The notes: a model not told the origin generated them from the letters alone. A stretch of 64,000 nucleotides of DNA from Trueperaceae bacterium (GCA_002707365.1 PAMQ01000008.1:3122-67121); one strand, 5' to 3'. Numbered from the stretch's first letter, positions 1 to 37,713 are shown. Program-made: numbers and translations.

Positions 1-507
1 CCTCATGGTGGGCGAGGTTCCATGCAGAACTTGGACGGGCTAATCCCGATTGCGTTTCCACATAATAGCTCTGTAACACCAATAGAAATCATGGAGATGC
101 AAGCACCACTACTAATACTGGAGAAGGAACTCCTACCTGACTCAGCAGGTCCCGGTAGGCGCCGTGGTGGAATTGGCCAAAGGATGACCTTCCGGAACAC
201 AGCTAATGTGACGTACAGTGCCAGAGTTAGGCCTGACAAGATTTTCTGCGCACCTCCGGGCCTTAACGGTGGTTCGATCGGAACTACCGGAGAGGTGCGA
301 TTCAACGGGGAGTTGATTGAGCGGTTCCCCATTCTTCCGTTCGCACCAGGGGATGAAATAGAAATGCGAATGCCAGGAGGAGCCGGATTCGGTGATGTTC
401 GGTTGCGGGAGAAAGAATTAGTACTAAGGGATATTGAGCTTGGTTATGTTACTAGAGAAGGGGCAGCTAAAGACTACGGCCTGATAATAGACGTGCCGGA
501 GTCTTGA
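1..507 (+). CDS. hyuB: Hydantoinase B/oxoprolinase family protein, C-terminal part (5' truncated by window)
   Basis: The reading frame is open from base 1, so only the last ~168 residues are present. They match the C-terminal part of the two complete HyuB proteins in this window: an HGG-RG segment, an 'FPHNSSVTP' segment, a 'PDSAGPGRRRGGIGQ' glycine/arginine-rich loop and a late 'GGAGFGDV' motif. HyuB is the beta subunit of ATP-dependent N-methylhydantoinase/5-oxoprolinase-type enzymes, which open cyclic amides or ureides. A second hyuB follows after a 26-bp gap, so the two are probably co-transcribed. A HyuA partner, if present, must lie upstream of the window. Confidence 0.9.
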   Translation, partial: PHGGRGSMQNLDGLIPIAFPHNSSVTPIEIMEMQAPLLILEKELLPDSAGPGRRRGGIGQRMTFRNTANVTYSARVRPDKIFCAPPGLNGGSIGTTGEVRFNGELIERFPILPFAPGDEIEMRMPGGAGFGDVRLREKELVLRDIELGYVTREGAAKDYGLIIDVPES

Positions 508-533
508 ATGCCCGCGACAGGTGGGGAGTGAAC

Positions 534-2240
534 ATGGGAATAGATCCGATTAGCCTCGAAGTGATGTGGCAGCGGCTTGTTGCGATTGCAGACGAGATCG
601 ACACAGCGACAATCCGAACTTCTTTCTCAACAATTGTTGGCGAAAGTCACGATTTTGGTTGCGCGATTCTTGATGCTAATGGCGCGGGACTTGCGCAGGC
701 ACAGTGGAGTCCGCCGCAGTTTTGCACTATGCTCCCCCGTACTGCTAGTTTGTTGTTTGAAAGATTCCCGATAGATACACTTAGTGAAGGTGATGTGCTT
801 TGCACTAATGACCCGTGGATCGGTAGCACTCATTTGCCGGATTACAACCTGATCTCGCCGGTATTTCACAAAGGCAAGGTGGCAGCGTTCTTAGGCACAG
901 TGGCTCACGTATCTGACGTGGGTGGTCATCTAGGTGACCTTGAGGCCTCCGACATGTTTATGGAGGGTACACGGGTGATGCCTAACCTGTTCTATCGACG
1001 GGGAGAAGTAGACCCGATAATTGAGGAATTCATTGCAGCGAACTGCCGTGTACCCGAGATGGTTCTGGGTGACCTACACGCCATTGTAGGTACTCATCGG
1101 ATTGGTGCTAGGCGTTTACAGGAGTTCATGGACGACTATGGATTGGATAACATTACGCCCCTTTCAGACGCTATTCTTGGACGCTCTGAAAATGCATTAA
1201 GAGAGGCTATTGCGGAACTTCCTGATGGGGTGGCAAATTACGAGTTGACTGCCGACGGTTATTTGGAACCGTTCACCCTTAAACTTTCCATCGAAATTAG
1301 TGGTTCCGAAATCTTAATGGATTTCACAGGGAGCTCGCCCCAGCAGAATCACTCTGCAATCAACGCTGCTTTTAACATCAGCTACTCTACAGCGGTCTAT
1401 CCGATCAAATGCATTCTCGCCCCAAGGATTCCAAATAATGATGGTCTGGTTCGCCCAATTCAGATCACTGCTCCTGAAGGCTCCATTGTCAACTGTACTT
1501 TTCCAGCACCTGTCAAAGCCCGAGCTAAAGTAATCAAACATATACCTCCGCTAATCTTCGGGGCATTAACCCCGTTATTACCTGGAAAGACTATTGCTGC
1601 TGGCGGGGGAATTTTTCCGTTCCACTTTGTGGGAGAAGACGAGAAATTTCCGAAGTTTGCTGTTCACATGTTGCCCCACGGTGGTCTTGGTGCAACTAAG
1701 GAGGCAGATGGTTTGCTGCCCGCAGCTTACCCACACAATAGTACAGTTACACCTACTGAGATTATTGAGAGACAGTGTCCAGCGGTAATGATTTGCAAGA
1801 AAATCATTCCAGATTCAGGAGGACCCGGGCGGAGGCGAGGAGGCCCAGGTCAAGAAATAACACTACGGTGTACAGCTAAAAAGCCTGTGCTGCTTACCAT
1901 TCGACCGGACCTGATGAAATTTCCGGCACCAGGTCTTGAAGAGGGCGGTGAAGGTTCCCGAGGCGAAGTCCTGCTAAATGGCGACAGGCTCGAACGCTTC
2001 GTTCCAATCCCGTGGCACCCTGGGGATCTAATTACACTGCGTGTCCCGGGTGGTGGTGGGTACGGCGACCCCCGGCAGCGAGAAAAAGAACGCGTTCTAG
2101 AAGATGTTGCCCTAGGTCTTGTCACAACGGAGGCGGCACGAGAAGTTTACGGTCTTGATATTGACGTTGACCCACAAACAATACGACTCGAGGCAATTCG
2201 TGATCATGTAGCCAGACAAGCTGAGAGGGGTCATGGCTGA
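534..2240 (+). CDS. hyuB: Hydantoinase B/oxoprolinase family protein (HyuB)
   Basis: A 568-aa, full-length HyuB-type subunit. The N-terminus 'ISLEVMWQRLVAIADEID' is typical of the family. So are the 'ATNDPW'-like 'CTNDPWIGSTHLPDYNLI' stretch, 'VAHVSDVGGHLG', and the 'PDSGGPGRRRGGPGQ' loop near the C-terminus. I chose ATG 534 because GGGGAG lies just upstream; a longer TTG start at 504 would overlap the previous gene. Predicted role: one subunit of an ATP-dependent hydantoin/oxoproline-type hydrolase. Its last 8 bases overlap the next gene (ATGGCTGA), which indicates translational coupling with the cyclic amidohydrolase. Two HyuB genes in tandem without a visible HyuA is unusual. Confidence 0.92.
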   Translation: MGIDPISLEVMWQRLVAIADEIDTATIRTSFSTIVGESHDFGCAILDANGAGLAQAQWSPPQFCTMLPRTASLLFERFPIDTLSEGDVLCTNDPWIGSTHLPDYNLISPVFHKGKVAAFLGTVAHVSDVGGHLGDLEASDMFMEGTRVMPNLFYRRGEVDPIIEEFIAANCRVPEMVLGDLHAIVGTHRIGARRLQEFMDDYGLDNITPLSDAILGRSENALREAIAELPDGVANYELTADGYLEPFTLKLSIEISGSEILMDFTGSSPQQNHSAINAAFNISYSTAVYPIKCILAPRIPNNDGLVRPIQITAPEGSIVNCTFPAPVKARAKVIKHIPPLIFGALTPLLPGKTIAAGGGIFPFHFVGEDEKFPKFAVHMLPHGGLGATKEADGLLPAAYPHNSTVTPTEIIERQCPAVMICKKIIPDSGGPGRRRGGPGQEITLRCTAKKPVLLTIRPDLMKFPAPGLEEGGEGSRGEVLLNGDRLERFVPIPWHPGDLITLRVPGGGGYGDPRQREKERVLEDVALGLVTTEAAREVYGLDIDVDPQTIRLEAIRDHVARQAERGHG

Positions 2241-3621
2241 CCTCGCGATTGTCAACGGTAAGTTAGCCCCTACCGCTCCTAATGCCGATCCAGAAGCTGG
2301 TACGCTGCTAATCAACGGTGGTCGCATAGAAGCTGTGCTGCCTCCCGAAGAGTACGTGGCTGCCGATCAAATTTTTGACGCCGAAGGACTCCTGGTTCTT
2401 CCTGGTGCTATAGATATTCACTTTCACTGCCGCGCTCCAAGCTTTCCAGAGCGGGGAGACTTTGGTTCCGAATCTAAAGCAGCAGCTGCAGGTGGCGTGA
2501 CAACAATATTCGAGATGCCAATATCTAAACCTTGTGCCTCGACGACAGAGGTATGGTTAGCTCGACGCGACTTAGCTGCAAGCCACGCACACGTCAATAT
2601 AGGACTTTACGGAGCGCCTGGTAGATTGGATCGGAAAGAAATAGAGGGCATGGCAGCAGCAGGAGCCATCGCCTTCAAACTATTTACCACCGAAGCCGTC
2701 AAAGGCCGTGAAGACGAGTTTACAGGCCTTAGCGTTACAAACATTGATGAGATCTATCAGGCGCTCGAGTTGGTCCGTGATACCGGCCTACGCTGTGCTT
2801 TCCACGCGGAGGATCAGCGATTAATCGATATGTTTACTGCTCGGGCTAGAGGCCTTGAAGGACCAGACCATTTTCGCCACCTTCGTTCCCGGCCAAGTGT
2901 TGTAGAAACCACAGCTGCAGCACAGCTGATTGCGGTGGCAGAAACAATAGACACGCCTATTCACTTACCACACGTTAGCTCCAAATCAACCGTTGACGTT
3001 ATCCGACATGCAAAAGCCCGAGGCGCTAAAATTTCTGCTGAGACGTGCCCACACTATCTCCACTTCACCGAAGACATCTTGGAGAAAATTGGTCCTTATG
3101 GGAAGATTAATCCACCAATACGGCACGAAGAGGATCGCGAAGCCCTTTGGGAGGCTGTTCGTGAAGGGGTCATCGACGTAATAGCGACTGATCATGCGCC
3201 ATTCACCCCAGCTGAGAAGGAGGCCGCTTGGGGAGATATTCTTTCAGCACCCCCAGGTCATCCAGGTGTAGAGCAGTTAGTACCCCTCATGATGGATGAG
3301 GCTTTAAGTGGTCGCCTTGACTTGTTCCATGTGGTGGAACTAATAAGTACTCGACCAGCAGAACTTTTTGGTCTTTACCCCAACAAGGGTGTATTGCGGG
3401 CTGGCGCTGATGCCGATCTGACAATATATGATCCTCAGTCTAGAAAAATCATTAATCGACAAGATGGTTTTAGTCGGGGGGCTGATTGCAACCGACTATA
3501 TGATGGTATGGAGATTCAAGGTGAGGTGGCTGCCACGATAGTTGGTGGCAAGACTGTTTATCATGGCGGTGAGATTAAGGGTAGTCCTGGGGATGGCGCA
3601 ATAGTCCAACCCTGCAACTAA
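2233..3621 (+). CDS. Dihydroorotase/allantoinase/hydantoinase-type cyclic amidohydrolase
   Basis: A 462-aa member of the amidohydrolase superfamily, cyclic-amidase branch. The metal-site signatures are all visible: 'DIHFHCRAP' (HxH), 'GAIAFKLF' (the lysine usually carboxylated), 'LPHVSSKSTVDV' (His), 'ETCPHYL' (His) and 'IATDHAPF' (Asp). The 'HVSS...CPHYL' pattern resembles allantoinases and dihydroorotases more than D-hydantoinases, but the substrate cannot be fixed from sequence. It overlaps hyuB by 8 bp and is followed after 32 bp by the M24-fold gene, so it sits in a likely operon for cyclic ureides or imides. Expected to be cytoplasmic, with a binuclear metal centre. Confidence 0.9.
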   Translation: MADLAIVNGKLAPTAPNADPEAGTLLINGGRIEAVLPPEEYVAADQIFDAEGLLVLPGAIDIHFHCRAPSFPERGDFGSESKAAAAGGVTTIFEMPISKPCASTTEVWLARRDLAASHAHVNIGLYGAPGRLDRKEIEGMAAAGAIAFKLFTTEAVKGREDEFTGLSVTNIDEIYQALELVRDTGLRCAFHAEDQRLIDMFTARARGLEGPDHFRHLRSRPSVVETTAAAQLIAVAETIDTPIHLPHVSSKSTVDVIRHAKARGAKISAETCPHYLHFTEDILEKIGPYGKINPPIRHEEDREALWEAVREGVIDVIATDHAPFTPAEKEAAWGDILSAPPGHPGVEQLVPLMMDEALSGRLDLFHVVELISTRPAELFGLYPNKGVLRAGADADLTIYDPQSRKIINRQDGFSRGADCNRLYDGMEIQGEVAATIVGGKTVYHGGEIKGSPGDGAIVQPCN

Positions 3622-3653
3622 CAGTAATAAAGTCTAATTAAGGGGGAGTCAAA

Positions 3654-4820
3654 ATGACCAAGGCGGATCTTAATGAACGTGATAAGCGACTTCAGCGGAC
3701 CAGAGAAGCAATGGAGCGTGAAGGACTTGACGCGTTACTGGTAGCTGGTAAAGGACACTGGTGGACTGGTCGGGGTTATTGGCGTTACTTTACGAACTTT
3801 CATCTTTGGGGTCACGATGGTTTGTTATTGATCCCGAAGGAAGGTGAGCCGGCTTTCACCAATAATAGTCCTGCACTGGCAGCTCGTATTGCTCAAGAAG
3901 GTTGGGTGACCGAAAGTCGTGGGGATGTATACATAGTCCCACGTATGGCTGATTACATTCGTGAGAAGGGGCTTGCCACCAGCCGTATCGGCATTGCTGG
4001 ATTCCGCTTTATACTCTCCGCTGGTAGTTATGCCGAACTACAAAGGCTTCTCCCAGACGTAACTTTCGTCAGTGCAGACGACCTTATGGACAAGATCCGC
4101 TCTACAAAGAGTGAACTCGAAATAGTCCAAGAGCGTGAATTATGGACTATGGCGAAATCCGTAATGACAGGGTTTGGCGAGTTAGTCAAAGACGCTAAAG
4201 GAGTAAGCCAGCGGGAGTTGATTGCAGAAGCAACAAAACCTGTTTGGGCTGCAGGTTCCCGGGACTTATTAATTTTCATAGCTGAAGAACCGGGAACGGT
4301 TGAGGTGCCGGCTGATATTCCTCTAAGACTCGACGATAAACTGAGATTTCACCTGGAGATTTGTGGAGAGAGTGGTCACTGGTGTGAGATCACTATTAAC
4401 TGTGCATTCCAGCCACCGAATGATCTGGAGCGAAAACTCATTGAGGATGAACTCATTGCCTTCGAGGAGACTCGTAAGGTTGCCCGACCGGGTAATAGAC
4501 TTTCCGATGTGGCTGCTGCCTTCAATCGCGTAATGGTGCAACAAGGTTGGGACCTTGGTGAGGAAACCACACATTTCCATTTTCATGGTCAAGGAATGGA
4601 CACGATTGAACGGCCATGGTTTTCCCAGAAGGAACCCTGGGGACAGTCCCAGGACTGGCCGCTTGAGGCTGGCATGGTTTTTTCTTACCACCCCCGCCGT
4701 AACGTTGTTATGCCCGAAGGCAATTGGAGCTCAGGCCTAAATGAGGACATCCTGATAACTGAGAATGGTGCCGAACGCTTAAGTGTTGATTGGGAGCACC
4801 GCTGGCGTTCAATGGACTGA
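3654..4820 (+). CDS. M24 (creatinase/aminopeptidase P fold) family protein with altered metal site
   Basis: A 388-aa protein with an N-terminal creatinase-like domain (~1-150) and a C-terminal pita-bread domain (~155-388). It is recognised from the family order: 'STKSELEIVQERELW', 'ARPGNRLSDVAAAF', 'HFHGQGMDTIERPW' and 'NEDILITENGAERL'. Of the five usual metal ligands (D, D, H, E, E) I see E235 and E245 where the two Asp would be, H311 kept, H346 in place of the first Glu ('SYHPRRN') and E364 kept. It may therefore be a non-canonical dipeptidase or a creatinase-like C-N hydrolase; the catalytic His of creatinase is also not apparent. A GGGGGAG ribosome site precedes ATG 3654. Confidence 0.82.
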   Translation: MTKADLNERDKRLQRTREAMEREGLDALLVAGKGHWWTGRGYWRYFTNFHLWGHDGLLLIPKEGEPAFTNNSPALAARIAQEGWVTESRGDVYIVPRMADYIREKGLATSRIGIAGFRFILSAGSYAELQRLLPDVTFVSADDLMDKIRSTKSELEIVQERELWTMAKSVMTGFGELVKDAKGVSQRELIAEATKPVWAAGSRDLLIFIAEEPGTVEVPADIPLRLDDKLRFHLEICGESGHWCEITINCAFQPPNDLERKLIEDELIAFEETRKVARPGNRLSDVAAAFNRVMVQQGWDLGEETTHFHFHGQGMDTIERPWFSQKEPWGQSQDWPLEAGMVFSYHPRRNVVMPEGNWSSGLNEDILITENGAERLSVDWEHRWRSMD

Positions 4821-4847
4821 TGGGCAGGGTTGTACAAAGGAGAATCC

Positions 4848-6260
4848 ATGGAAAATGATAAATTCGTTGGTGTACAAATCAGTCCAGTTAGTTTCATTGA
4901 TGAGGGAGTTGATCAGGTCCTAGAGACGCTCCAAGAACGCGTTGGGGTAAATGTCTTGATGATTGGCACGGTTTCGTGGCTCGGTCTCAAGGTTGGACGT
5001 AGTATCTCCCACGAACTAGACGGTTTCCCTGATCACGGGGTAGCTGAGCCTTTCACCCTACAAGGCGGAGCCTATTTCAACCCAGATTCAGCCTATTACC
5101 GCAATACGCTCATCAATAATTACCGAGCCACGGATCCTGAGATGGCTGGTAAAGATGTTCTTGAGATGGTCATCCCTGCTGCTAAGGCAAGGGGCATGCA
5201 AGTCTACATTGAGTTAATGGAGCCCTTTTTTAAGTACGCAGGGCATGGATCCGCCAACACCGTTCAAATCCCAAATCTAGCACAGTGTTTAGAAGTTGAT
5301 TTTCTTGGCCGGCATGGTTCGGAACCTAGTACCAGCAACCCTGACTATCGCCTCTGGATTCATTCCATGATAGAGGATCAGTGCCGTAACTATGACATTG
5401 ATGGTGTCATGTGGTGTAACGAGCGGCGTAGTCCGCTTGACCAACTTATGGTGGGTGATGCCCCAGGTGACTTCAGTGAAGCCAGCCGACGAGAGGCCTT
5501 ACAACAGGGCATTGATGTTGAACGAGTCAGGAGTGCTTTCCGAGAAGCCTACGACTACTTCCAAAAAGTACGGGCTGGCGAGAACTTCGTAGATGGAGCG
5601 CTTATCGAGTTTTTACGGGTGCTTCTGCAGAACCCTGAGATACTAATTTGGGAGCGATTCTGGTTAGAGCGAAACAAGGATCTTGACCGGGAATTATACG
5701 GAATTGTGAAATGGATCAACCCAGACATCCAGTTCGGTCTTAACGTGTGGAACAGAAACCACTTCAACCCTTTTCGCAAGGCACAGTGGCCCTGGGACGA
5801 GCAGACGCAATACGCAGACTGGGTCAAGCCGATTACCTACCAACACCAGTCTGGCCTCATATACGTCAATGAGATGACTACTTTTCACGAAACCATACTC
5901 CGTGACTTTACTCCCGAAGAAATGACCCCGATCATGTACAAAGCCCTTGGCCTAGAGGAGGCGCCTTGGGATGAGGTTGTACAGACCGGTATGGATCCAG
6001 ATACCTACGTTTACGGCCAGTGTGCAGACGCAGTACGAGGCGTTAACGGTAAGATCCCAGTTTTCATGGGTCTGGGAGTAGATGCCCCACGGACCCGTGC
6101 TGATCAAGCGGTATGCACGCCAGATATCGTTTATCGTAGCGTCAAAGCCACGTATCGTGCTGGAGGTAAGGGCGTGATTTTTTCCCCCAACTATGCCAGC
6201 ATGAAGCTTACTAACTTAGATGGGGCAGCTAGTGCTCTGGAAGAGTTAGGACTCAAGTGA
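4848..6260 (+). CDS. Putative TIM-barrel glycoside-hydrolase-like protein, substrate unknown
   Basis: A 470-aa protein. I do not recognise a specific family. It reads like a (beta/alpha)8 barrel: an N-terminal 'VGVQISPVSFIDEG', 'GVNVLMIGTVSW', 'AKARGMQVYIELMEPFF', 'NYDIDGVMWCNERR' (an Asp/Glu-rich strand end typical of glycoside-hydrolase-like barrels), then 'PVFMGLGVDAPR' and 'GGKGVIFSPNYASM'. No signal peptide is visible. The start is ATG 4848 with AAAGGAG just upstream; a TTG at 4830 is less likely. It lies 27 bp after the M24 gene, which ties it to the ureide/amide operon. Candidate catalytic acids cannot be assigned with confidence. Confidence 0.72.
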   Translation: MENDKFVGVQISPVSFIDEGVDQVLETLQERVGVNVLMIGTVSWLGLKVGRSISHELDGFPDHGVAEPFTLQGGAYFNPDSAYYRNTLINNYRATDPEMAGKDVLEMVIPAAKARGMQVYIELMEPFFKYAGHGSANTVQIPNLAQCLEVDFLGRHGSEPSTSNPDYRLWIHSMIEDQCRNYDIDGVMWCNERRSPLDQLMVGDAPGDFSEASRREALQQGIDVERVRSAFREAYDYFQKVRAGENFVDGALIEFLRVLLQNPEILIWERFWLERNKDLDRELYGIVKWINPDIQFGLNVWNRNHFNPFRKAQWPWDEQTQYADWVKPITYQHQSGLIYVNEMTTFHETILRDFTPEEMTPIMYKALGLEEAPWDEVVQTGMDPDTYVYGQCADAVRGVNGKIPVFMGLGVDAPRTRADQAVCTPDIVYRSVKATYRAGGKGVIFSPNYASMKLTNLDGAASALEELGLK

Positions 6261-6381
6261 ACCCAAGGGAGGGCCACTCTGACAGCTTTCGTACGTTAGT
6301 TTACAGCGTAATAATTCGCACCCGACAAGTGACAACATAATCGGTATCAGATCCTAGTTGATCTAAGAAAGGGAGCATAAT

Positions 6382-7608
6382 ATGCCCGAACCCCCAGCAT
6401 GGCGTTACCAAAAAATTACTAAGCCAATGGTTGACATTCCATTGGGGCATCATGTGTTTCTTGGCAGGGTGTTGACTGGTATTGGTGATGAGGTTATTGA
6501 CGACGGTTTTATTGAGATCAAAGAGGATAAAATTGAAGCAGTTGGAATAGCCTCCGAATTAGGTTCTCGTGCTAAAGATGCTATTGATACCGGAGGCTCG
6601 ATCCTCCCGGGAATGTTTAATAGTCACGCGCACCTTGCTTGGGATGGTATTCACGACTTAGCTCGCCAGTCGATGGATGATTCGCCGGAAATCAGTGCTT
6701 ATAAGTCTGCAGGTAACATGCTGATTAGTTTGCGAGCCGGGATTACTACCGTCCGTGACCTTGGTATGAACACAGCAAACATTTTTTCTAAGCAAGCTGT
6801 GGAGCAAGGGATTTTCCCAGGTCCACGGTTGCTTATTACAGGTGAGGCAATCATACAGACTGGTGGTCACACCTATTGGTGCTGTCGGGAAGCAAGTGGT
6901 GCTGATGAAATGCGTCGAGCTGTACGGGAGCAGGTACGTGCCGGCGCAGACCTGATCAAGATTATGGCTTGTCACGATACGCTTGAGCTCACTGATGAAG
7001 AGTTAGACGCGGTAATTGACGAGAGTCACCGCAATGGCCTACCCATAACCGCGCACGCTACCCGGAATGATGCAATAGCACGAGTAGTGAGTGCTGGAAT
7101 AGATTGTGTAGAGCACGGTGGTGGCATGACCGACGACACCATACAACTGTTGCTACAACGAGGCGTTCCTATCGTCACTACTTTCGCTCCACTAGTTATG
7201 CAGAGTCAAGCGGAAATTGCGCGCCAGTACGGAATTCCTGAATGGAAGATTGAAGAACGACAACGGGCCGTAGCTGATTCTGGGCGCTACGAATCACTTG
7301 TAAAAGCTGCTAATGCTGGTGTAACAATTGGATTCGGTACGGATGCGGGTAGTCCAGTAGTACCGCACTCTGTAGTTGCACCTGAGATGAAATTCATGGT
7401 CAAACTCGGAGTGGTAAAGGACAACTATGGTGCTTTGCGTAGTGCTACAAGCGTAGCAGCCAACATCAATGGGCTTGAGCAAGAACTAGGCACACTTGAA
7501 GCTGGTAAGGTTGCGGATGTAGTTTTTGTGGAGGGGAATCCAATTGATAACCTGGATGCCCTAGAAAATGTCACGGCCACATTTGTAGCCGGTAAGCAAC
7601 TGTTCTAG
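6382..7608 (+). CDS. Amidohydrolase family protein (imidazolonepropionase/prolidase-like)
   Basis: A 408-aa metal-dependent hydrolase. Signatures: 'FNSHAHLAWDG' (HxH), 'GITTVRDLG', 'GADLIKIMACHD' (candidate bridging Lys), 'ITAHATRND' (His), 'DCVEHGGG' (His) and 'GFGTDAGSP' (Asp). This is the imidazolonepropionase/Xaa-Pro-dipeptidase-like branch. It is a paralogue of the minus-strand gene ending at 34579; both share the HAHLAWDG/HGHLGWDG and GFGTD(A/S)GSP blocks. An AAAGGGAG site precedes ATG 6382. It is 121 bp downstream of the TIM-barrel gene, so it could be the end of the same operon or have its own promoter. A strong hairpin follows at 7642-7681. Confidence 0.9.
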   Translation: MPEPPAWRYQKITKPMVDIPLGHHVFLGRVLTGIGDEVIDDGFIEIKEDKIEAVGIASELGSRAKDAIDTGGSILPGMFNSHAHLAWDGIHDLARQSMDDSPEISAYKSAGNMLISLRAGITTVRDLGMNTANIFSKQAVEQGIFPGPRLLITGEAIIQTGGHTYWCCREASGADEMRRAVREQVRAGADLIKIMACHDTLELTDEELDAVIDESHRNGLPITAHATRNDAIARVVSAGIDCVEHGGGMTDDTIQLLLQRGVPIVTTFAPLVMQSQAEIARQYGIPEWKIEERQRAVADSGRYESLVKAANAGVTIGFGTDAGSPVVPHSVVAPEMKFMVKLGVVKDNYGALRSATSVAANINGLEQELGTLEAGKVADVVFVEGNPIDNLDALENVTATFVAGKQLF

Positions 7609-7762: not shown

Positions 7763-8878
7763 TTACTGTCGGTCACGAGCCGTGTGTTGATTTACACCTG
7801 TTACATTACCTCCAGCGTCCACCCATAAGCTATAGGGGTACTTGATAGTTGTCGGGCAAATATGTCCCGGGACTGCTAAGAGATAGTCGCCTACCTGCGG
7901 TAATGTTTCAGGGTTAGCCTTGAATACCCCATGCTCTTCGTTTTGCGAAATGAGTCGGGCATTTGGTACCGATGGCAGAAAAACTCTTTGTTCTAAAGGT
8001 TTGTCTGGCGCAACAGCCTTGTTACCAAGATCAGTAGTGAAAAGAAGCTTCTCAGGGTAAGAATCGACTACCTGGGTTAATAGGAAAGCCGCCCACTTGA
8101 AGGGCATATCAGGAAGTAAAGAGGAGTAGCCTGCATCCCAATAAATTGCGGTACCTGGTGATCCCAATATAGCTTCTTCACGAGCGTAAAAAGGAAAAGA
8201 GAATGAACCCCCACCTACCACTATATCCACTGGCCAGCCTTTCCCAAGAAGGATGTTGCGAAATCTCTTAACCTCTTGAATGTGAGCTAAAGCCAGACCT
8301 TCGCGCTTTCCATAGTCGGGTTCGTGGTCATGACCATCGTATGCGTGCAGCCCGGCGGCCCGTGTATACGAACCTTCTTGCAACACTTTGTAAATTTCTT
8401 CAGCACGTTTTCCTATTGCGACCCCCGTTCGCAACATTCCAACATCTAGGTCTAATAAGGCACTAAGACAGAAACCGTGCTTCTTCCCCTCTTTGGCTAA
8501 TAAATCGACGTGTAATGGTTGGCTAACTATAGCGTGTACAGTCCTGTCAGAATAGGTTTTGCAGAGTTCTACAAAACGTTGAACCTTCCGCTTTTGTGCC
8601 AAGGGATATGTCAGTATCGCGAGTGAGGCCCCAGCTTTTAGCACCATCTCGAGTTCCGATAGAGTTGCCGTTTTGAAACCCGCGACTCCTGCTCTAAGTT
8701 GAAACTGGGTAACCTCCAATGATTTGTGAGTCTTAACATGAACGAGAAGATTGCCACCACCACAAGCAAGCCTACAGAGCGTGTCGATGTTGTTCATAAC
8801 AATATCCCGGTATACGAGCATTACTGGAGTTGAAACGCTCTCGGGATCAGCAAATTTTATGTCGTTCCACTCAATCAT
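7763..8878 (-). CDS. D-threonine aldolase / D-serine dehydratase-like PLP enzyme
   Basis: A 371-aa protein of the alanine-racemase-fold DSD1/D-threonine aldolase family. The N-terminal 'LVHVKTHKS' box carries the PLP-binding lysine. 'LLDLDVGMLRTGV', 'GLHAYDGHDH' and 'VVGGGSFSFPF' are typical phosphate- and PLP-contact loops. The C-terminal 'VPGHICPTT' supplies the His and Cys metal ligands of the family. Expected reaction: metal- and PLP-dependent cleavage or dehydration of a D-3-hydroxy amino acid. Together with a hydantoinase-like enzyme and an M55 D-aminopeptidase elsewhere in the window, it hints at D-amino-acid use. It appears to be a single gene; the ribosome site is weak. Confidence 0.86.
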   Translation of the reverse strand: MIEWNDIKFADPESVSTPVMLVYRDIVMNNIDTLCRLACGGGNLLVHVKTHKSLEVTQFQLRAGVAGFKTATLSELEMVLKAGASLAILTYPLAQKRKVQRFVELCKTYSDRTVHAIVSQPLHVDLLAKEGKKHGFCLSALLDLDVGMLRTGVAIGKRAEEIYKVLQEGSYTRAAGLHAYDGHDHEPDYGKREGLALAHIQEVKRFRNILLGKGWPVDIVVGGGSFSFPFYAREEAILGSPGTAIYWDAGYSSLLPDMPFKWAAFLLTQVVDSYPEKLLFTTDLGNKAVAPDKPLEQRVFLPSVPNARLISQNEEHGVFKANPETLPQVGDYLLAVPGHICPTTIKYPYSLWVDAGGNVTGVNQHTARDRQ

Positions 8879-11735: not shown

Positions 11736-13196
11736 TTAGCGCATCTCAAAGGTAGGTGGAAAGAATTCATCAACATTACTACCCCTCCGGTCCCACCCAG
11801 CGAGCGTCTCACGGACCTTTCGGGAAACCTTTTGGGAAGCACGACTAATTTCAGCTTCGTCAACCATTGGACAATGAAAGTTGTCAACAACTAAGCGTCC
11901 ACCACTAAAGACCTGTTTCACATCGGCCATGGAGGCGTAGTAAACAAGGCTGCGGATAGGGTCGTCCTGGGCACTTAGGGCAGGCCGGTCCAGGTCCACG
12001 ACTGTGATGTCAGCTCGAGAACCTGGTGAGAGGCGCCCTATGTCATCACGCCTTAAGAATCTGGCCGCGTTGACAGTGACGGCGTTATAAACCTCTCGGG
12101 CAGTGGCCGTACGAGCGTTTGTGTGAGCTACCTTACCCATAATTGCGCCAAAACGCATTTCTCTTAATATGTCATCTGGTTGAGTATCAGTTCCTAAGCA
12201 AACATTTATACCTGCATCATTGTACCGGGAAATAGAATTGAGATAACTACCCCGCATTGAATAAATCCAGGGGCAGTTGGTCACCGTAATTCCGTGTTCT
12301 GCAAGAGTAGCTAGCTCTCCATCACTCATAGTTCCATCGGGGTCCCGGCCTAGCAACGCGTGCGTGAGCATTACCTCGGGCCCAAGGAAGCCGATACTGT
12401 CTAGGTATTCTACTGGGGTTTTGCCGCCATGGCGATCGGCGATAAGGCGTAATTCGTTTTCGGATTGAGCGAAGTGCATGCGTATACCTACCCCAAGCTT
12501 AGCAGCAGCATCTTTAGTGGCTTGTAGAAGCTCTGGGCTTACTTGGTCAGTGGTATATGGAAATAACAGGCCATGTACTCTACCTCCGTAGCCACCGTCA
12601 TGTTTTTCGATAAACGCAATATTGCGTTCTAGCCCTTGGAAACCACGTTCTTCATCCCAGACCCACCCGGGTGAGCCGTCAGGCTCTACGAACTGCGCAC
12701 CAGCACGAAAATGGTGCGACAAATAGGCGCGTAAGCCAAACCGCACGGCGGTCTCTACGTAGATTTCTGGTTCCCAAATGGGGTCGTTGAAGCGCTTAAA
12801 AACCATCGCCGTGATTCCGCAAAAGGTAGTTACCCCAGATCGGAGCATCGACAGAAAAGTATGCTCCGCGCCGGCACGGATCTCGTCAGGAGAAAAAACA
12901 GGAGGCTCTCCTTCCTCTATCACCCAACTTTTTGGTCTATACATGCCGCTTCGTTTACCCAAATCGAGGAGAGGCGGGTGAATTCCGACGTCCATCAGTG
13001 CATGCATGTCAATCAATCCAGGTGATACTAGACAGCGCGAAGCGTCAATCACGCGGTCAACGTTGCCTTCGTAGCCCTGGCCAACAAAGAGGACATTGTC
13101 CTCTTCGAACACCACCTCGCCGTTTTTATACACAACGTGTTCCTTAGAAACTTCGTTGTAACCCACCACGTAGCGCCCGTCTATTTTTGTTTTCAT
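11736..13196 (-). CDS. ATZ/TRZ-like amidohydrolase (deaminase family) with modified HxH motif
   Basis: A 486-aa protein. A small beta-domain (1-60 and the C-terminus) surrounds a metal-dependent hydrolase barrel: 'VSPGLIDMHALMD', 'RSGVTTFCGIT', 'GIRMHFAQSENE' (His), 'LTHALLGRDPDG' (His), 'VCLGTDTQPDD' (Asp) and 'LSPGSRADITVVDLD'. This is the guanine/cytosine-deaminase, chlorohydrolase-like branch. The family HxH after strand 1 reads H65-A-L67, so the second His is missing; the same change occurs in the paralogue at 36231-37694. Substrate unknown. GGGGGTAGG precedes ATG 13196. It is divergent from the DegT aminotransferase across a palindrome-containing promoter region. Confidence 0.85.
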   Translation of the reverse strand: MKTKIDGRYVVGYNEVSKEHVVYKNGEVVFEEDNVLFVGQGYEGNVDRVIDASRCLVSPGLIDMHALMDVGIHPPLLDLGKRSGMYRPKSWVIEEGEPPVFSPDEIRAGAEHTFLSMLRSGVTTFCGITAMVFKRFNDPIWEPEIYVETAVRFGLRAYLSHHFRAGAQFVEPDGSPGWVWDEERGFQGLERNIAFIEKHDGGYGGRVHGLLFPYTTDQVSPELLQATKDAAAKLGVGIRMHFAQSENELRLIADRHGGKTPVEYLDSIGFLGPEVMLTHALLGRDPDGTMSDGELATLAEHGITVTNCPWIYSMRGSYLNSISRYNDAGINVCLGTDTQPDDILREMRFGAIMGKVAHTNARTATAREVYNAVTVNAARFLRRDDIGRLSPGSRADITVVDLDRPALSAQDDPIRSLVYYASMADVKQVFSGGRLVVDNFHCPMVDEAEISRASQKVSRKVRETLAGWDRRGSNVDEFFPPTFEMR

Positions 13197-13311: not shown

Positions 13312-14454
13312 GTGGCTATGAGAATAAGGATGTACGACAATATTGCCCAATATCTGAGTGACAAAGAGGCAATTGACGCTGCCGTTCTTTCGGTACTGGA
13401 ATCTGGTGAGTTAGTGATGGGGCCAGACGTTCGAGCTCTCGAAGAGGAGTTTGCGGCTTATTGTGGGACTAATTACGCGGTGGGCGTGACTTCCGGAACA
13501 TCTGCCCTACTGCTGGCACTTCGGGCACTTGGGATCGGTGAGGGTGACGAGGTAATAACAGTGGCAAATTCAGATATACCCACCAGCCAGGCCGTTACTT
13601 TGACGGGCGCCAAAGTAGTTTGGGTTGATATCGAACCGATAGGTTGCAATATGGACCCAGATCAAATTGAGGCAGCCATAACACCAAAGACTAAGGCTAT
13701 TTTACCCGTGCACTTACATGGGGTGCCGGCAGACCTCGACCCCATCCTTAAGATTTCTGAAAAGTACGATGTTGCGGTAGTGGATGATGCGGCGCTAGCC
13801 GCAGGGGCTCGATATCGTGGGAATCGCATTGGTTCCCTAGGTAGTCTCACAGCATTTAGTACAGCCCCAGGGAAAATACTAGGTGGTATTGGTAGTGGTG
13901 GGCTCATCACAACTGAAGATCGTTCTCTTTACAATCGACTAAATACTTTACGACACTATGGAAGAGAGGACCCGCCCTATCGTGACAAACAATCCATGGG
14001 TCCGAAGTGGCCTTCAGACACGATAGAGATTGGTTATAACGAACGGATTGACTCAATCCAAGCCGCGGTTTTGAGAATCCGTCTGCCCCAGCTTGATGAG
14101 CTTTCTGTCAGGCGCCGGGAAATTGCGGAGATTTACTCAAAAGGTTTCGAAAAAGTAGGCGTAAGGTACCAGCAGCCCCCACCAGATAGCGAGGCTGTAT
14201 GGCGTGTATTCACGGTCCTATTACCTGATCGTGACCGAGTTCATGCTGGTCTCCATGCTGTTGGTATCGAATCGTCACTTGCTTACGTCCCAGCTGATCA
14301 CCTTGATGTCTGTTATCGTGATTTAGGTTATAGACCTGGTAGTCTCCCGGAAACAGAAGTTTTCTGCAATGAACTGCTGGCACTCCCTTGTCATCCTTAC
14401 ATGAGTAATGCGGAAATAGATGAGGTACTAACGACAGTGGTCGAGTTGCTCTAA
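13312..14454 (+). CDS. DegT/DnrJ/EryC1/StrS-family aminotransferase
   Basis: A 380-aa PLP enzyme of the sugar/cyclitol aminotransferase family. 'VGVTSGTSALLLALRALGI' is the phosphate-binding region, 'AVVDDAALAAGARY' carries the PLP-ring Asp (the usual Gln of EDAAQ is Leu here), and 'AFSTAPGKILGGIGSGG' contains the Schiff-base lysine, about K188. 'DPPYRDKQSMGPKW' and 'IGYNERIDSIQAAVL' follow the family pattern. Substrate unknown; no sugar-nucleotide pathway genes are nearby. The start is GTG 13312 with AAGGAGA 8 bases upstream. Only 4 bp separate its stop from the next hydantoinase-B start, an unusual gene pairing. Confidence 0.9.
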   Translation: MAMRIRMYDNIAQYLSDKEAIDAAVLSVLESGELVMGPDVRALEEEFAAYCGTNYAVGVTSGTSALLLALRALGIGEGDEVITVANSDIPTSQAVTLTGAKVVWVDIEPIGCNMDPDQIEAAITPKTKAILPVHLHGVPADLDPILKISEKYDVAVVDDAALAAGARYRGNRIGSLGSLTAFSTAPGKILGGIGSGGLITTEDRSLYNRLNTLRHYGREDPPYRDKQSMGPKWPSDTIEIGYNERIDSIQAAVLRIRLPQLDELSVRRREIAEIYSKGFEKVGVRYQQPPPDSEAVWRVFTVLLPDRDRVHAGLHAVGIESSLAYVPADHLDVCYRDLGYRPGSLPETEVFCNELLALPCHPYMSNAEIDEVLTTVVELL

Positions 14455-14458: not shown

Positions 14459-16111
14459 ATGGGTACCCGTATAGATGGAATTGAACTTGAGATCCTTTGG
14501 CAGCGGCTAATTGCCATTATGGATGAAGTCGACACTATTATTGTTAAGACCACCTTCTCAACTATCCTGCGAGAGAGTCGAGATTTTGCCTGCATACTAG
14601 CTGACCCTAGCGGCCTTTCTCTTTGTCAGTCCCAGCTTAGTACAGCTAACTTCTCTGCTGTTTTTCCTCTCACGGCCGCAAAATTGTTGGAGCGTTATCC
14701 TATCGATACTCTGAAGCCAGGGGATGTTCTTGCCACCAATGACCCTTGGTTCGGTACTGGCCATCTGCCTGACTACATATTGCTGGTTCCCATTTTCTGG
14801 CGCGGTCGAGTAGTTGCTTGTATGGGAACGGTTTCACACATGTCTGATGTGGGCGGGCACCCGGGCGAGATCGAGGGTGAGGATGTATTTAGTGAGGGAT
14901 TGAGAATGCGTCCTTTTAAGCTTTACGAACAAGGGGAAGAAAACCCACTGGCTTTTGATGTAATTGGTGCCAACTGTCGTGCGCCAAATCTCCTGCTCGG
15001 AGATCTTCGGGCTATGGCTGGCGCGCTTCGTATAGGCTCGGAGCGGGGACGAGAATTTCTCCAGGATCAGGAGGCCGATGACTTTGACGCGCTAGCCGCT
15101 ACAATCAGTGACCGTTCCGAACAAGCTATGCGTAGAGCTATTGATTCTCTTCCTGATGGCGCATATGAGTACGGTCTTGACATTGACGGTTATATAGAGC
15201 CTATCCATCTCCACGTGACAGTGAACATTCAGGGTTCGGAAGCAATCGTTGACTACACAGGCACTTCATTAGAATCTCGCCATGGGGCAATAAATTCTTC
15301 TTACCACAGCACTCGCGCCTCGAGCGTCTATGCGTTTAAATGTGCCTTGGTACCTGAGGTCCCAAACAACGAAGCACTTTTTCGTCCTATTCGCATTGTG
15401 GCCCCCAAGGGCTCAATTCTCAACGCCCAGTTTCCCATTGCCGTTAAGGCCCGGGCAAAGACTACGAATAATGTCAACCAGGTGATTTCCGGAGCTCTTT
15501 GGTCGGTCTTCGGTAATCGTGTTCAAGCTAGTAATGGTGCTATTTGGCCTTTGGTGCTGAAGGGGGAAGAAAAAGACTTAGGCCGCTACATTGTTGATAT
15601 GCTCCCTCACGGCGGTCGCGGAGGACTCCCTTCCATGGATGGCATGGTTCCCGTTGCTTATCCGAACAACAGCACTATTACTCCTTGCGAGGTGCTTGAG
15701 TCGCAGGCGCCGATTCTTTTTTGTCGTAAGGAACTACGTCCTGATAGTGGCGGAGCAGGTCGCTATCGCGGTGGCCTGGGTCAAATTGTAGTTTTTAAGC
15801 ATGTTGGGAAAGAAGCAGGAATTTTTAGTCTGACTCCAGACCGCATAACCACCTTGCCACAGGGCTTGGATGGTGGTGGCCCTGGGGAGATTGGGGCAGT
15901 TTATATAAATGGCAGAAAGACTTTCCTTTTTCCCGCAATAGACCTTCATCCCAACGACATTGTGGAGTTACATATTGCAGGTGGTGGGGGGTTTGGCCCA
16001 CCTTCAGAACGTTCCCTGCAGGCTATCCAGCACGATATTAGTATGGGTTACGTTAGTCTCGAGCGAGCACGACATGATTACCAACTCACCAGGGAGCTGA
16101 CGCCAGAGTAA
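14459..16111 (+). CDS. hyuB: Hydantoinase B/oxoprolinase family protein (third HyuB)
   Basis: A 550-aa complete HyuB-type protein, similar throughout to the one at 534-2240: 'ELEILWQRLIAIMDEVDT', 'ATNDPWFGTGHLPDYIL', 'VSHMSDVGGHPGEIEG', 'MLPHGGRGGLPSMDG', 'YPNNSTITP', 'RPDSGGAGRYRGGLGQ' and 'AGGGGFGPP'. It starts 4 bp after the aminotransferase stop and must be translated from that transcript; the spacer is A-rich and shows no strong Shine-Dalgarno. No HyuA gene is present. It is the last gene before the GC-rich block. Expected role: subunit of an amide/imide-ring hydrolase, possibly acting on a product of the aminotransferase partner. Confidence 0.93.
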   Translation: MGTRIDGIELEILWQRLIAIMDEVDTIIVKTTFSTILRESRDFACILADPSGLSLCQSQLSTANFSAVFPLTAAKLLERYPIDTLKPGDVLATNDPWFGTGHLPDYILLVPIFWRGRVVACMGTVSHMSDVGGHPGEIEGEDVFSEGLRMRPFKLYEQGEENPLAFDVIGANCRAPNLLLGDLRAMAGALRIGSERGREFLQDQEADDFDALAATISDRSEQAMRRAIDSLPDGAYEYGLDIDGYIEPIHLHVTVNIQGSEAIVDYTGTSLESRHGAINSSYHSTRASSVYAFKCALVPEVPNNEALFRPIRIVAPKGSILNAQFPIAVKARAKTTNNVNQVISGALWSVFGNRVQASNGAIWPLVLKGEEKDLGRYIVDMLPHGGRGGLPSMDGMVPVAYPNNSTITPCEVLESQAPILFCRKELRPDSGGAGRYRGGLGQIVVFKHVGKEAGIFSLTPDRITTLPQGLDGGGPGEIGAVYINGRKTFLFPAIDLHPNDIVELHIAGGGGFGPPSERSLQAIQHDISMGYVSLERARHDYQLTRELTPE

Positions 16112-17083: not shown

Positions 17084-18685
17084 ATGTTGAGGCGATCGAT
17101 CACGGTGGACCGGCAATATCTTGTCCTCCCGGTAGCTAAGGGTCCCATGTCTGGGCACCTGCGGCTTCGGGACGAATCGGGAACAGTCCGGGAGTTCGAC
17201 ATCCGGCTTGCGGATGGGGCTGGTGATTATCAGGTATTCAGTGACCTTGAGCCTTACCGGGGTGCGAAGCTCACTGTCGAGTACGAGGGTGACACCGCCG
17301 CGTCTCTCGACGGGATCTTTCTCGCTGACGAGCCCGTCGATCCGGGGGAGATCTACCGAGAGCGTTTGCGTCCCCAGTTCCACTTCTCTTCGCGGAGGGG
17401 TTGGAATAACGACCCCAACGGCTTGTTTTACTACGGAGGCGAATATCACCTCCTCTACCAGCATAATCCCTACAGTACCGATTGGGGCAATCTGCATTGG
17501 GGTCACGCTGTCAGCACCGATCTGGTGCAGTGGACCGAGCTGCCGGTCGCACTCTACCCGGACGCGCTGGGCACCATGTCCACCGGCTCGTCGGTGGTGG
17601 ATTACGAAAACACCAGTGGGCTCGGGAGCGACGAGGGACCGGCCATTGTCGCCGTCTATACGGCTGGGCATGCGGATTGGGTAGACGAGTTCACGCAGTG
17701 CGTCGCCTTCAGTACCGACGGCGGTCGCAGCTGGACTAAGTACGACGGCAATCCGGTAATGGGGCACATTATTGGTAAGAATCGCGACCCTAAGGTCATC
17801 TGGCACCCCGAGACTGAGCGCTGGATCATGCCGCTCTACATGGACCAGTCCGACTACGCTATCTTCGCCTCCCCCAACCTGCTCGAGTGGGAGCACGTGA
17901 GCGACTTCACGCTGCGCGGCGCGACCGAGTGCCCAGAGCTTTTCCCGCTACCGGTCGATGGCGACGAGGACGACCGGCGCTGGGTCTTCTGGGGAGCGAA
18001 CAGTACCTACGCAGTCGGGAGTTTCGATGGGACTGCGTTCCGGCCTGAACAATCGCTTCGGATGCTGCAGCCCGATGGTTGCGCCTACGCAGCTCAGACC
18101 TGGGGAGAGAATCCCGATGATGACCGGCTGTTGCAGATGGCGTGGTTCCGCCAGGTCATGCCTGGCATGCCGTTCGGCCAGTTCATGACTATCCCCTGGA
18201 GCCTCGGGTTGATCCGGCGGGATGACGGGATCGTGCTCACCGCCGACCCTGTGCAGGAACTCGAGGTCCTGTGGGAAGAGCAGTGGCAGGAGCGGGACGT
18301 CGAGCTTACGGCGGGTACCGAGCTCGAGGCGGGGTTAGGTGGTGAACTCCTCGACCTCGAGGTCGACATCGACCTGGGTGAGGCGGACTCCGCCGGAGTC
18401 GTGGTTCGCGGCGTCCCTGTCTGGTACGACCGAAGTCTGGGAGCACTCTTCTGTGGTAGTTATACGGCCCTTATGACGGTTCCGTTGAGGTCGCTAAGGC
18501 TTCGGATCCTGGCTGATCGCACCTCGATCGAGGTGTTCGCTGATGGCGGCACGACTCTTGTGGCGGCTGGTGTGGTACTTCGGCCCGAGGACCAGGAGGT
18601 CCGACTCTTCGCCCGTGGTGGATCGGCTCTAGTGCGTAAAGTGCGCGTCTCGCGTCTGCGAACCGCGTGGCCGTTCGGGGGCTAA
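17084..18685 (+). CDS. GH32 beta-fructosidase (levanase/fructan hydrolase type)
   Basis: A 533-aa protein with a ~95-residue N-terminal beta domain, a GH32 five-bladed propeller (~97-390) and a C-terminal beta-sandwich (~400-525). All three catalytic motifs are intact: 'WNNDPNG' (nucleophile D110), 'RDP' at 234-236 (transition-state stabiliser D235) and 'TECPELF' (acid/base E282). It has no signal peptide, so it would hydrolyse imported sucrose, inulin- or levan-type oligosaccharides inside the cell. GGGAGG precedes ATG 17084. It converges with the ABC transporter genes. Codon use is strongly GC-rich, unlike the genes before 16500. Confidence 0.93.
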   Translation: MLRRSITVDRQYLVLPVAKGPMSGHLRLRDESGTVREFDIRLADGAGDYQVFSDLEPYRGAKLTVEYEGDTAASLDGIFLADEPVDPGEIYRERLRPQFHFSSRRGWNNDPNGLFYYGGEYHLLYQHNPYSTDWGNLHWGHAVSTDLVQWTELPVALYPDALGTMSTGSSVVDYENTSGLGSDEGPAIVAVYTAGHADWVDEFTQCVAFSTDGGRSWTKYDGNPVMGHIIGKNRDPKVIWHPETERWIMPLYMDQSDYAIFASPNLLEWEHVSDFTLRGATECPELFPLPVDGDEDDRRWVFWGANSTYAVGSFDGTAFRPEQSLRMLQPDGCAYAAQTWGENPDDDRLLQMAWFRQVMPGMPFGQFMTIPWSLGLIRRDDGIVLTADPVQELEVLWEEQWQERDVELTAGTELEAGLGGELLDLEVDIDLGEADSAGVVVRGVPVWYDRSLGALFCGSYTALMTVPLRSLRLRILADRTSIEVFADGGTTLVAAGVVLRPEDQEVRLFARGGSALVRKVRVSRLRTAWPFGG

Positions 18686-25694: not shown

Positions 25695-27191
25695 ATGGAT
25701 CCTGTCGAGAATTACCGTGACGCGGTCACAAGCCGGGATCGGGAGGTTTACGGGCCAGCTGCGCTTGCACTCAGGCGCTGGATGGCGGCCAACGATCCAC
25801 ACTGGCCCCGCTACCATCTGCTCGGTCCCGAGAGCTGGACCAACGACGCCAATGGGCCGATCTACTACCAGGGGCGCTACCACATGTTCTACCAGTTCGA
25901 CCCCATCGTCAACGGCCGCCAAAGTGCCCGCACTTGGGCCCACGCCGTCAGCGACGATCTGGTCCACTGGAAGGACTGGCCCGTCGCCCTATGGCCCGAC
26001 ACGCCCTACGACCGTAACGGCGTCTACTCCGGCAATACCTTCGTCCTCAACGACGGCAGCCTCGGCGCCCTCTACACCGGCAACGTCGATGGCCACCGCG
26101 AGACGTATGGGATCTTCGCCCGCAGTGCAGACGCCGGCCTCACCTGGACCAAGAAAAGCGTCATGGATGATAGTGAGCGGCCCAACCCCGATTCACCCGT
26201 CCACTGGGACGGCCAGGTGTGGCGCGATGGCGACCTCTGGCACCAGCTCATCGGCGGCACCACCGGAGGCAATGAGCCCCGTGGCGCCGCCTGGCTGTGG
26301 GCCTCGCCCAATCTCGAACACTGGACCCTTCAGGGGAACATAGCTCCAACCATCGAGAGCAACGGCTTCTGGGAGCTGCCCTACCTGATTCCACTGGGCG
26401 GCCGGCACGTACTGATGGTGGGGCAGGGCAACCCCTACTGGATCGGTAGTTACGACCGGAAAAAAACGCTCTTCACACCCGACGGTAAGGAACCCCACCA
26501 GTTCGACACAGGCAATTACTACGCCGTGAACCCCCACATGGTCGACGATAAGGGGCCCGCCGGGAGCGAGCGGAGGCTGTTACACGCCTGGGTCACTGGG
26601 CCGCCCTCAACCACGGATACTGTCCCCTACTGGCAGGGCGCCCTAGCGCTGCCGCGAGTGCTTACGCTCGAGGGCGATCGGGTGCGGCAGGAGCCAATCC
26701 CGGAGCTGCAGAGTCTGCGGGGCCGGCACCAACGGTTCGAGGGTTCAGTTATGACGGATCAGCTACGGAACATCCGGGGTGACGCCCTGGAACTCCGGGC
26801 GACCTTCATCAATAACGGCACGGACAGGTTCGGACTGAAGCTGCGGGTCTCCGACGACGGCAGCGACTTCGTCAGGGTGTTCTACGACCCGGACCGCAGA
26901 GACTTCGGCGTGGACGGTCCAACCGTGGAGCGCAATGCCCGAGATTTCCAGGAGGGTCTTTTGGGCGTCAAATTAGGGAGGCAGGCGTCGTTTCTCGAGC
27001 CGGGCGCACCCGTGACGCTGCACGTTTTCCTTGACCGATCGATTGTAGAGGTGTTCGTCAACGGCTGTGCCTATACCGCCCGTGCGTTCTCCGACCCCGC
27101 AGCTCTAGGGGTTGACCTCTGGTTCGAGCGCGACTCAGCTAAGCTCGACTCCCTAGACGTGTGGGAGCTGAGTTCCATCTGGGAGAACTGA
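25695..27191 (+). CDS. GH32 family glycoside hydrolase with divergent active-site motifs
   Basis: A 498-aa GH32 protein: propeller (~35-340) plus C-terminal beta-sandwich ending 'HVFLDRSIVEVFVNG'. The three catalytic acids appear retained but their motifs are changed. The NDPNG box is 'WTNDANGP' (D51), the RDP box aligns with W-D-G in 'HWDGQVWRDGD' (about D172), and the EC box is 'WELPYLIP' (E227). It may have different linkage specificity, or transfructosylase rather than invertase activity. No signal peptide. GAGGGAGG precedes ATG 25695. It shares high-GC codon use with the transporter and the first GH32 gene. Confidence 0.9.
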   Translation: MDPVENYRDAVTSRDREVYGPAALALRRWMAANDPHWPRYHLLGPESWTNDANGPIYYQGRYHMFYQFDPIVNGRQSARTWAHAVSDDLVHWKDWPVALWPDTPYDRNGVYSGNTFVLNDGSLGALYTGNVDGHRETYGIFARSADAGLTWTKKSVMDDSERPNPDSPVHWDGQVWRDGDLWHQLIGGTTGGNEPRGAAWLWASPNLEHWTLQGNIAPTIESNGFWELPYLIPLGGRHVLMVGQGNPYWIGSYDRKKTLFTPDGKEPHQFDTGNYYAVNPHMVDDKGPAGSERRLLHAWVTGPPSTTDTVPYWQGALALPRVLTLEGDRVRQEPIPELQSLRGRHQRFEGSVMTDQLRNIRGDALELRATFINNGTDRFGLKLRVSDDGSDFVRVFYDPDRRDFGVDGPTVERNARDFQEGLLGVKLGRQASFLEPGAPVTLHVFLDRSIVEVFVNGCAYTARAFSDPAALGVDLWFERDSAKLDSLDVWELSSIWEN

Positions 27192-27261: not shown

Positions 27262-27451
27262 ACGTTTCAGTATCAGGTGTGAATCTGTACGGTGGCTCTT
27301 CTGTCCCAAGTTCGCTGAAATGGTTTTCAGCTAGTGCCTTGCGCGTCTTCTTTAACGTGTCAGCTATTGCTAGTAAATCTTGGTCATCAAGTGCCAGGCC
27401 GAGACGCTTTGTTTCAGAACGAAGCCATTCAAACGAAAGTTTATTTTCCAT
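27260..27451 (-). CDS. AtzG-like small amidase subunit (DUF4089 type)
   Basis: A 63-aa protein, mostly helical: 'SFEWLRSETKRLGLALDDQD', a central amphipathic helix, then a C-terminal 'EEPPYRFTPDTE'. The pattern of a short helical protein ending in an E-P-x-F-x-P-like tail next to an amidase matches AtzG/GatC-like partners of amidase-signature enzymes (AtzE type). It overlaps the amidase stop by 11 bp, so translation is coupled. Expected role: stabilising subunit of the amidase. Confidence 0.72.
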   Translation of the reverse strand: MENKLSFEWLRSETKRLGLALDDQDLLAIADTLKKTRKALAENHFSELGTEEPPYRFTPDTET

Positions 27452-28838: not shown

Positions 28839-28878
28839 TCGTATAATCGCAGGCTCTGTCCCATTTTAGTGAGCATAA

Positions 28879-29772: not shown

Positions 29773-29815
29773 GTCTTCACCCCCTGTGAGACCTTAGTTC
29801 TTTGGAATTCGGTTT

Positions 29816-30739: not shown

Positions 30740-30786
30740 GGAATGACTTCAGGAAATATTAGACATTGGACAAAATTCGTCCCAAG

Positions 30787-30816
30787 TTGGGGACAGGATA
30801 ATTATCCTGTCCCCAA
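30787..30816 (-). terminator. Perfect 30-nt palindrome between binding-protein and permease genes
   Basis: Arms of 15 nt, TTGGGGACAGGATAA followed directly by its reverse complement, 46 bp after the binding-protein stop. The arrangement matches that at 23339-23372 in the other transporter operon, with an unrelated sequence. It likely works as an mRNA-stabilising hairpin or attenuator. Confidence 0.7.
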
Positions 30817-30862
30817 GCCGGGTAGCTTTTCTGGTAACTAACAAGGTCGAATTGACTCTATG

Positions 30863-34544: not shown

Positions 34545-34578
34545 TCCTTAATCTCCTTTCGCGAGCAGGCTCAAAAGC

Positions 34579-37694: not shown

Positions 37695-37713
37695 AAGCTC
37701 ACACTCCGTTTTC

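Follow-up and report, generated by a model that had tools for sequence, protein, structure and literature searches.

A 64,000-nucleotide stretch of DNA from a Trueperaceae bacterium (G000:C8:3122-67121, hereafter the window), part of a 2.08-Mb, 97%-complete assembly, begins inside a compact row of genes for hydrolases of C-N bonds. With the sequence upstream of the window included, a Pfam scan places seven genes on the plus strand in the order HyuA-HyuB1-HyuB2-HYD-M24-barrel-AH7, separated by gaps of about 9 to 121 bp. Coordinates are window positions unless a contig (C4, C8, or C10) or locus (L) is named (Table 1). The row ends at position 7608, facing a convergent gene on the opposite strand (7763-8878). 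An earlier sequence-only reading of the window had listed the genes visible there, all on one strand with short gaps, and had noted an 8-bp overlap between HyuB2 and the allantoinase-like gene that follows; each gene stands where that reading put it, and the overlap is exact. Three independent Trueperaceae contigs show the same order, with proteins 57 to 87% identical, so the arrangement is not due to chance; we treat these catabolic C-N hydrolase genes as one apparent operon whose spacing suggests co-transcription.

The sequence-only reading had also described the operon as lacking HyuA and proposed extending the sequence upstream to look for it. The absence holds only inside the window, which begins at C8:3122, and is an artefact of its edge. 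The body of HyuA lies at G000:C8:1-1881 and ends 79 bp upstream of HyuB1, leaving the A and B subunit genes adjacent. Its Hydantoinase_A domain (C8:391-1269) sits in a frame of 626 aa that runs off the contig end, and the N-terminus (...NYRFGFDIGGTFTDFVLID...WEELL) was found at the left edge of contig C10, on the minus strand. The gene is split between the ends of C8 and C10 and, set against the HyuA of genome G101, a complete protein of 706 aa, lacks only about 26 codons (~80 bp) in the assembly. Both phosphate motifs (FDIGGTFTDF at the C10 edge and DMGGT in L005) and the adenosine motif GADPGP (L005) are present. With the gene found across both contig edges, a genuine loss of HyuA was rejected. 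Three ambiguous bases fall in HyuB1, at or just before the window start.

Contig C10 also carries a divergent arm encoding SBP5-OppB-OppC, an S9 peptidase, a beta-lactamase-family (S12-like) hydrolase, and enolases. The layout in G101 is similar, with a divergent arm (enolase, Gfo/Idh, beta-lactamase-like protein, S9 peptidase) and HyuA, then a GntR/FCD regulator near the contig end; HyuB1 begins another contig, and the two contigs appear to abut. On C10, an SBP5-type binding-protein gene beside HyuB4 (L130:9184-10797) has one in-frame stop, either a sequence error or the mark of a decayed gene.

Table 1. Operon genes and related features in the window
Feature	Position	Strand	Basis and remarks
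HyuB1, 3' part	1..507	+	PF02538, 8.8e-123; full gene G000:C8:1961-3628 = L005:1961-3628, 555 aa
HyuB2, second metal-site (coupling) subunit	534..2240	+	PF02538, 1.1e-130; best PDB matches 7hk5 (N-methylhydantoinase) and 6yra (CapB); open reading frame 504-2240, ATG near 534 preferred as start, matching relatives
HYD, cyclic amidase, hydantoinase/allantoinase/dihydroorotase family	2233..3621	+	PF01979; best PDB match 1gkr (L-hydantoinase)
M24 (creatinase/prolidase fold) hydrolase	3654..4820	+	PF00557 + PF01321
Glycoside hydrolase-like (beta/alpha)8 barrel, GHL10-like	4848..6260 (alternative start 4830)	+	No Pfam family; Pfam GHL10 below cut-off
AH7, prolidase-like metal-dependent amidohydrolase	6382..7608	+	NF051886, PDB relatives
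Chlorohydrolase-family amidohydrolase	11736..13196	-	NF004801, 435 bits vs cut-off 416; 74% in L008
DegT-type aminotransferase	13312..14454	+	PF01041; ends 4 bp before HyuB3; 65% in L008
HyuB3	14459..16111	+	PF02538, 1.2e-123; no HyuA beside it; HyuB1/2 clade, 100/99

HyuA and its probable multiple HyuB partners

Four of the HyuB proteins (HyuB1 to HyuB4) carry the Asp-His-Asp-His metal tetrad in the motifs ESxDF, HLPD, and (A/S)HxxDVGG (ESHDF, HLPD, and AHVSDVGG in HyuB2), as compared with the CapB ligands of caprolactamase, where these residues are essential (PMC8453981). Together with the HyuA ATP-site motifs and the adjacent A and B genes, this likens the operon pair to CapAB of Pseudomonas jessenii and to 5-oxoprolinase/N-methylhydantoinase HyuAB. 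The operon subunits have the motifs that mark the ATP-dependent HyuAB/CapAB lactamase family, and their predicted activity is ATP-driven hydrolysis of a lactam or hydantoin. Unlike CapAB, the operon couples HyuAB to HYD, M24, a glycoside hydrolase-like barrel, and AH7, and its proteins score well under the 1000-bit cut-off of the caprolactamase models NF050156/NF050157 (HyuA 447, its N-terminus lacking; HyuB1 177; HyuB2 187).

A further difference from CapAB is gene number: the operon has two HyuBs per HyuA, and the genome five stand-alone HyuBs for one stand-alone HyuA, another two of its seven HyuB domains being fused to HyuA. HyuB1 and HyuB2 are both full length, 54% identical, and placed in separate sub-clades, and the idea that they are one split gene was rejected. 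The other three stand-alone genes (HyuB3, G000:C10:6287-7951, and G000:C4:28284-29909) have no adjacent HyuA and belong to the HyuB1/HyuB2 clade. In a tree of 40 rows, the operon HyuBs and 10 of the 11 HyuBs without a neighboring HyuA share this clade (100/99), whereas HyuBs with a HyuA partner of their own are placed elsewhere in the tree. Judged by coordinates, four HyuBs of the former kind occur in G101 with one matching HyuA, and five in G084, where HyuA is seen only as a fragment adjoining an assembly gap. HyuB was seen without HyuA in G081 and G075, both fragmented assemblies in which contigs break beside HyuB. The simplest reading is that one HyuA is shared by several HyuBs; alternatively, the HyuBs may act alone. 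The chlorohydrolase-DegT-HyuB3 layout is kept in another Trueperaceae genome (L008). A second chlorohydrolase-type amidohydrolase in the window (36606-37694), a paralogue of the first, aligns with its model over positions 1 to 363 of 491 only and is apparently truncated.

Enzymes downstream of HyuB2

HYD shares its fold family and all metal ligands with the hydantoinase/dihydropyrimidinase/allantoinase superfamily (HxH, K, H, H, D; here DIHFH61, K149, FHAE190, LPHVS245, and ATDHA318), including 1gkr, AllB, and ErtD. Unlike those systems, it falls below every curated cut-off (allantoinase AllB TIGR03178, 301/358; D-hydantoinase TIGR02033, 273/393; ErtD NF058539, 315/650), and its context has no N-carbamoyl amino acid hydrolase or allantoate steps. 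ErtD was the best NCBIfam match, and the ergothioneine pathway was rejected at half of the cut-off.

The M24 protein has the pita-bread fold (AlphaFold2 model, predicted local distance difference test score [pLDDT] of 82), with Foldseek matches to prolidase, DoeA, and creatinase. Aligned to prolidase 5cdl, and also to DoeA 6twk, its metal site reads E,E,H,H,E rather than the canonical D,D,H,E,E, and the substitutions are invariant in five orthologues. A canonical M24 peptidase (prolidase or aminopeptidase P) was rejected on these ligand residues. Departure from the peptidase site is a trait of the non-peptidase branch of creatinase and DoeA, although the residue set differs from theirs and the ectoine hydrolase DoeA model TIGR02993 is missed by a wide margin (54/613 bits). 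AH7 reaches 215 of 500 bits against the Xaa-Pro dipeptidase model NF051886; its PDB relatives are Cc2672, prolidases, and ochratoxinase.

What had been called an unknown TIM barrel still has no curated family, but its fold can now be recognized as GHL10-like. The AlphaFold2 model (pLDDT 87) is an eight-stranded barrel whose nearest Foldseek neighbors are Cwp19, the PgaB glycoside hydrolase domain, GH164, and GH42. As in GHL10, PgaB, and Cwp19, an Asn-Glu pair (N191-E192) follows strand 4 and D412 follows strand 7; these residues, invariant in 44 sequences, are putative catalytic ones. The barrel differs from those proteins in being only about 10 to 15% identical to any solved structure and in scoring 17.7 bits against Pfam GHL10 (PF02638), below the gathering cut-off of 27.9, and assignment to a glycoside hydrolase family was rejected on that score. 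It suggests that the substrate may bear a sugar or sugar-like group. Plasmid-borne homologues are only two, distant and annotated as hypothetical proteins. One homologue, 32% identical, on a Parabacteroides distasonis plasmid (L102), stands after a SusCD pair and before a glycerate kinase gene, which fits a sugar-related role of distant members.

Conservation of the operon and of a wider module

Three other Trueperaceae contigs (L007, L008, and L012) preserve the order HyuB1-HyuB2-HYD-M24-barrel, and two of them continue with AH7; HyuA is part of the row in one other Trueperaceae genome, where it lies on a contig that appears to abut, and a second genome retains a fragment of it. Homologues of all the parts also occur in the Chloroflexi OHK40 (HyuA, 64 and 59% identity; HyuB1, 70%; HyuB2, 67%; HYD, 43%; M24, 56%; barrel, 71%; AH7, 71%), and their different arrangement there supports a functional set.

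The barrel protein has its nearest named relatives in Trueperaceae (phylum Deinococcota), and barrel genes at 63 to 87% identity were found in 80 loci spanning seven phyla (Deinococcota, Pseudomonadota, Gemmatimonadota, Acidobacteriota, Chloroflexota, Actinomycetota, and Bacillota). Among the 67 loci with enough flank, which include related ones that are not independent (15 are similar marine alphaproteobacterial loci) yet show a pattern that recurs across phyla, 65 have an AH7 match no more than 6 kb from the barrel gene, 63 an aminotransferase near it, 59 HYD, and 58 Opp transporter ATPases. In place of HyuAB, these loci carry DUF4438 genes (58/67) and Ldh_2 (59/67). The barrel, AH7, aminotransferase, and HYD, often with a peptide-type ABC transporter, are a conserved module to which HyuAB is a variable addition. 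We found no description of this module in the literature and no paper on DUF4438, and searches on Trueperaceae hydantoinases and on hydroxyproline with HyuAB returned nothing relevant.

The DUF4438-type clusters of marine and soil Alphaproteobacteria, Gemmatimonadota, and Acidobacteriota share with the operon the orthologous barrel, AH7, and HYD, an aminotransferase, and an M24-family member, but have two DUF4438 genes, Ldh_2, M32, and VOC where the operon has HyuA-HyuB-HyuB. In L070 and about 60 similar loci, the divergent layout VOC-aminotransferase-M32/DUF4438-DUF4438-Ldh_2-M24-AH7-aminotransferase-barrel-HYD-OppDF is highly conserved. HyuB-type loci branch near the base of the tree, outside the main DUF4438 clade, in an exact order that is weakly supported.

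Elsewhere in the window, positions 27441-38847 encode an amidase, an Opp transporter, M42 and M55 peptidases, an Xaa-Pro-dipeptidase-like amidohydrolase, and an aminotransferase; homologues of several of these genes sit next to the barrel gene in locus L010 of Trueperaceae, so that the region may belong to the same metabolism as a second arm. Two proteins that by eye resemble GH32 (sucrose/fructan hydrolase-type) enzymes flank an Opp operon (17084-18685 and 25695-27191). At 46019-47074, two adjacent open reading frames resemble, by eye, pieces of one iron-containing alcohol dehydrogenase, perhaps frameshifted.

Proposed function and alternatives

From the gene content, motifs, folds, conservation, and presence of HyuA, we infer a set of reactions, their order, and a type of substrate. 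HyuAB, HYD, two amide-hydrolase folds, aminotransferases, a peptide-type importer, and S9/S12-like hydrolases together suggest that the cell imports a small, peptide-like cyclic amide (a lactam, an imide, or a cyclic dipeptide, perhaps sugar-bearing) and breaks it down by ATP-dependent opening, C-N hydrolysis, and transamination, a proposal that we consider evenly poised between right and wrong. Uptake would fall to the peptide-type ABC importer whose genes lie on the divergent arm (C10). HyuA would use ATP to convert the ring amide into an activated phospho-lactim for hydrolysis at the zinc-type site of HyuB, and the five stand-alone HyuBs, probably served by the same HyuA, would differ in substrate or step. 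HYD would open a second cyclic amide or imide without ATP, AH7 and the M24 enzyme would cut the linear amide products, the barrel would remove or open a sugar-like or other acetal moiety, and aminotransferases would deaminate the products, much as in the caprolactam route, where ring opening is likewise followed by an aminotransferase step. Among possible substrates, a cyclic dipeptide is a sensible one to consider first, since hydantoin-degrading bacteria cleave some diketopiperazines, by genes and enzymes not identified in that work (PMC3852281), and many genes annotated as 5-oxoprolinase have been proposed to encode lactamases or cyclic dipeptide hydrolases (PMC6061476).

Several observations weigh against this proposal. 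No operon enzyme passes a curated functional cut-off, and relatives of HyuA and HyuB include acetone and acetophenone carboxylases. Co-transcription is suggested by spacing, and promoter-like matches are no commoner than in shuffled sequence. HyuAB is also absent from most loci with the barrel, AH7, and HYD, so that HyuAB ring opening is not an obligatory step of the module.

One alternative is the degradation of ureides or imides (hydantoins, allantoin, dihydropyrimidines, or creatinine derivatives), in which either HYD or HyuAB would serve as the hydantoinase and M24 would carry out a creatinase-like step. The nearest structure to HYD is an L-hydantoinase, its best NCBIfam matches include hydantoin-5-propionate amidohydrolase and allantoinase, and the modeled M24 fold would suit such a step, but every named match is below its curated cut-off and Pfam finds neither a creatininase nor an N-carbamoylase among the seven operon genes. 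We think this route improbable. The ring-opening pathway offered by the sequence-only reading keeps its C-N hydrolases, its apparent operon, and a genuine HyuAB set with no curated allantoinase, hydantoinase, caprolactamase, or ectoine hydrolase match, but its ureide or creatinine route gained no specific support. The conserved neighbors are peptidase-like proteins (a prolidase-type amidohydrolase, M24, and M32 or S9), aminotransferases, and ABC transporters of the peptide type. They make a cyclic amide or something peptide-like a better candidate substrate than a purine or pyrimidine ureide of the classical kind.

Somewhat less probable still is catabolism of a glycosylated or cyclic proline or hydroxyproline peptide, in which M24, AH7, S9, and Ldh_2 would act at prolyl bonds or on their products, enolases would dehydrate hydroxyproline-like acids, and the barrel would remove a sugar. 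AH7 is prolidase-like, the divergent arm encodes an S9 prolyl-oligopeptidase family member, the few named near-matches of the enolases include cis-3-hydroxyproline dehydratase (far below cut-off), and in Granulicella a distant barrel homologue has a proline racemase/DHDPS-family set and aminopeptidase P as its neighbors; however, every link is at family level only, the Granulicella barrel is just 33% identical, and the window M24 is without canonical metal ligands. That HyuAB is instead an ATP-dependent carboxylase of the acetone/acetophenone type beside unrelated hydrolases is very unlikely: both subunits match ApcC/ApcA and ApcD models and belong to the same superfamily (PMC8453981), but CapA/CapB models score clearly above the carboxylase models, four genomes keep these genes in the same order with C-N hydrolase genes, and no gene for a small carboxylase subunit is seen in the operon.

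Returning to the cyclic amide proposal, the conserved barrel-AH7-HYD module and the many-HyuB/one-HyuA design are of more interest than the reported absence of HyuA. At its boldest, and we think this a long shot, the operon would represent an undescribed route that mineralizes cyclic dipeptides or glycosylated cyclic amides, with one HyuA serving interchangeable HyuBs from separate operons and a GHL10-like barrel/prolidase-like module spread across seven phyla. Few enzymes that open cyclic dipeptides have been identified, and the combination of HyuA, several HyuBs, HYD, and prolidase-like enzymes makes the idea testable; cultivable genera such as Devosia, Neorhizobium, and Limimaricola carry the core module too, in their case without HyuAB. 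A shared HyuA, if confirmed, would alter the annotation of stand-alone HyuB genes.

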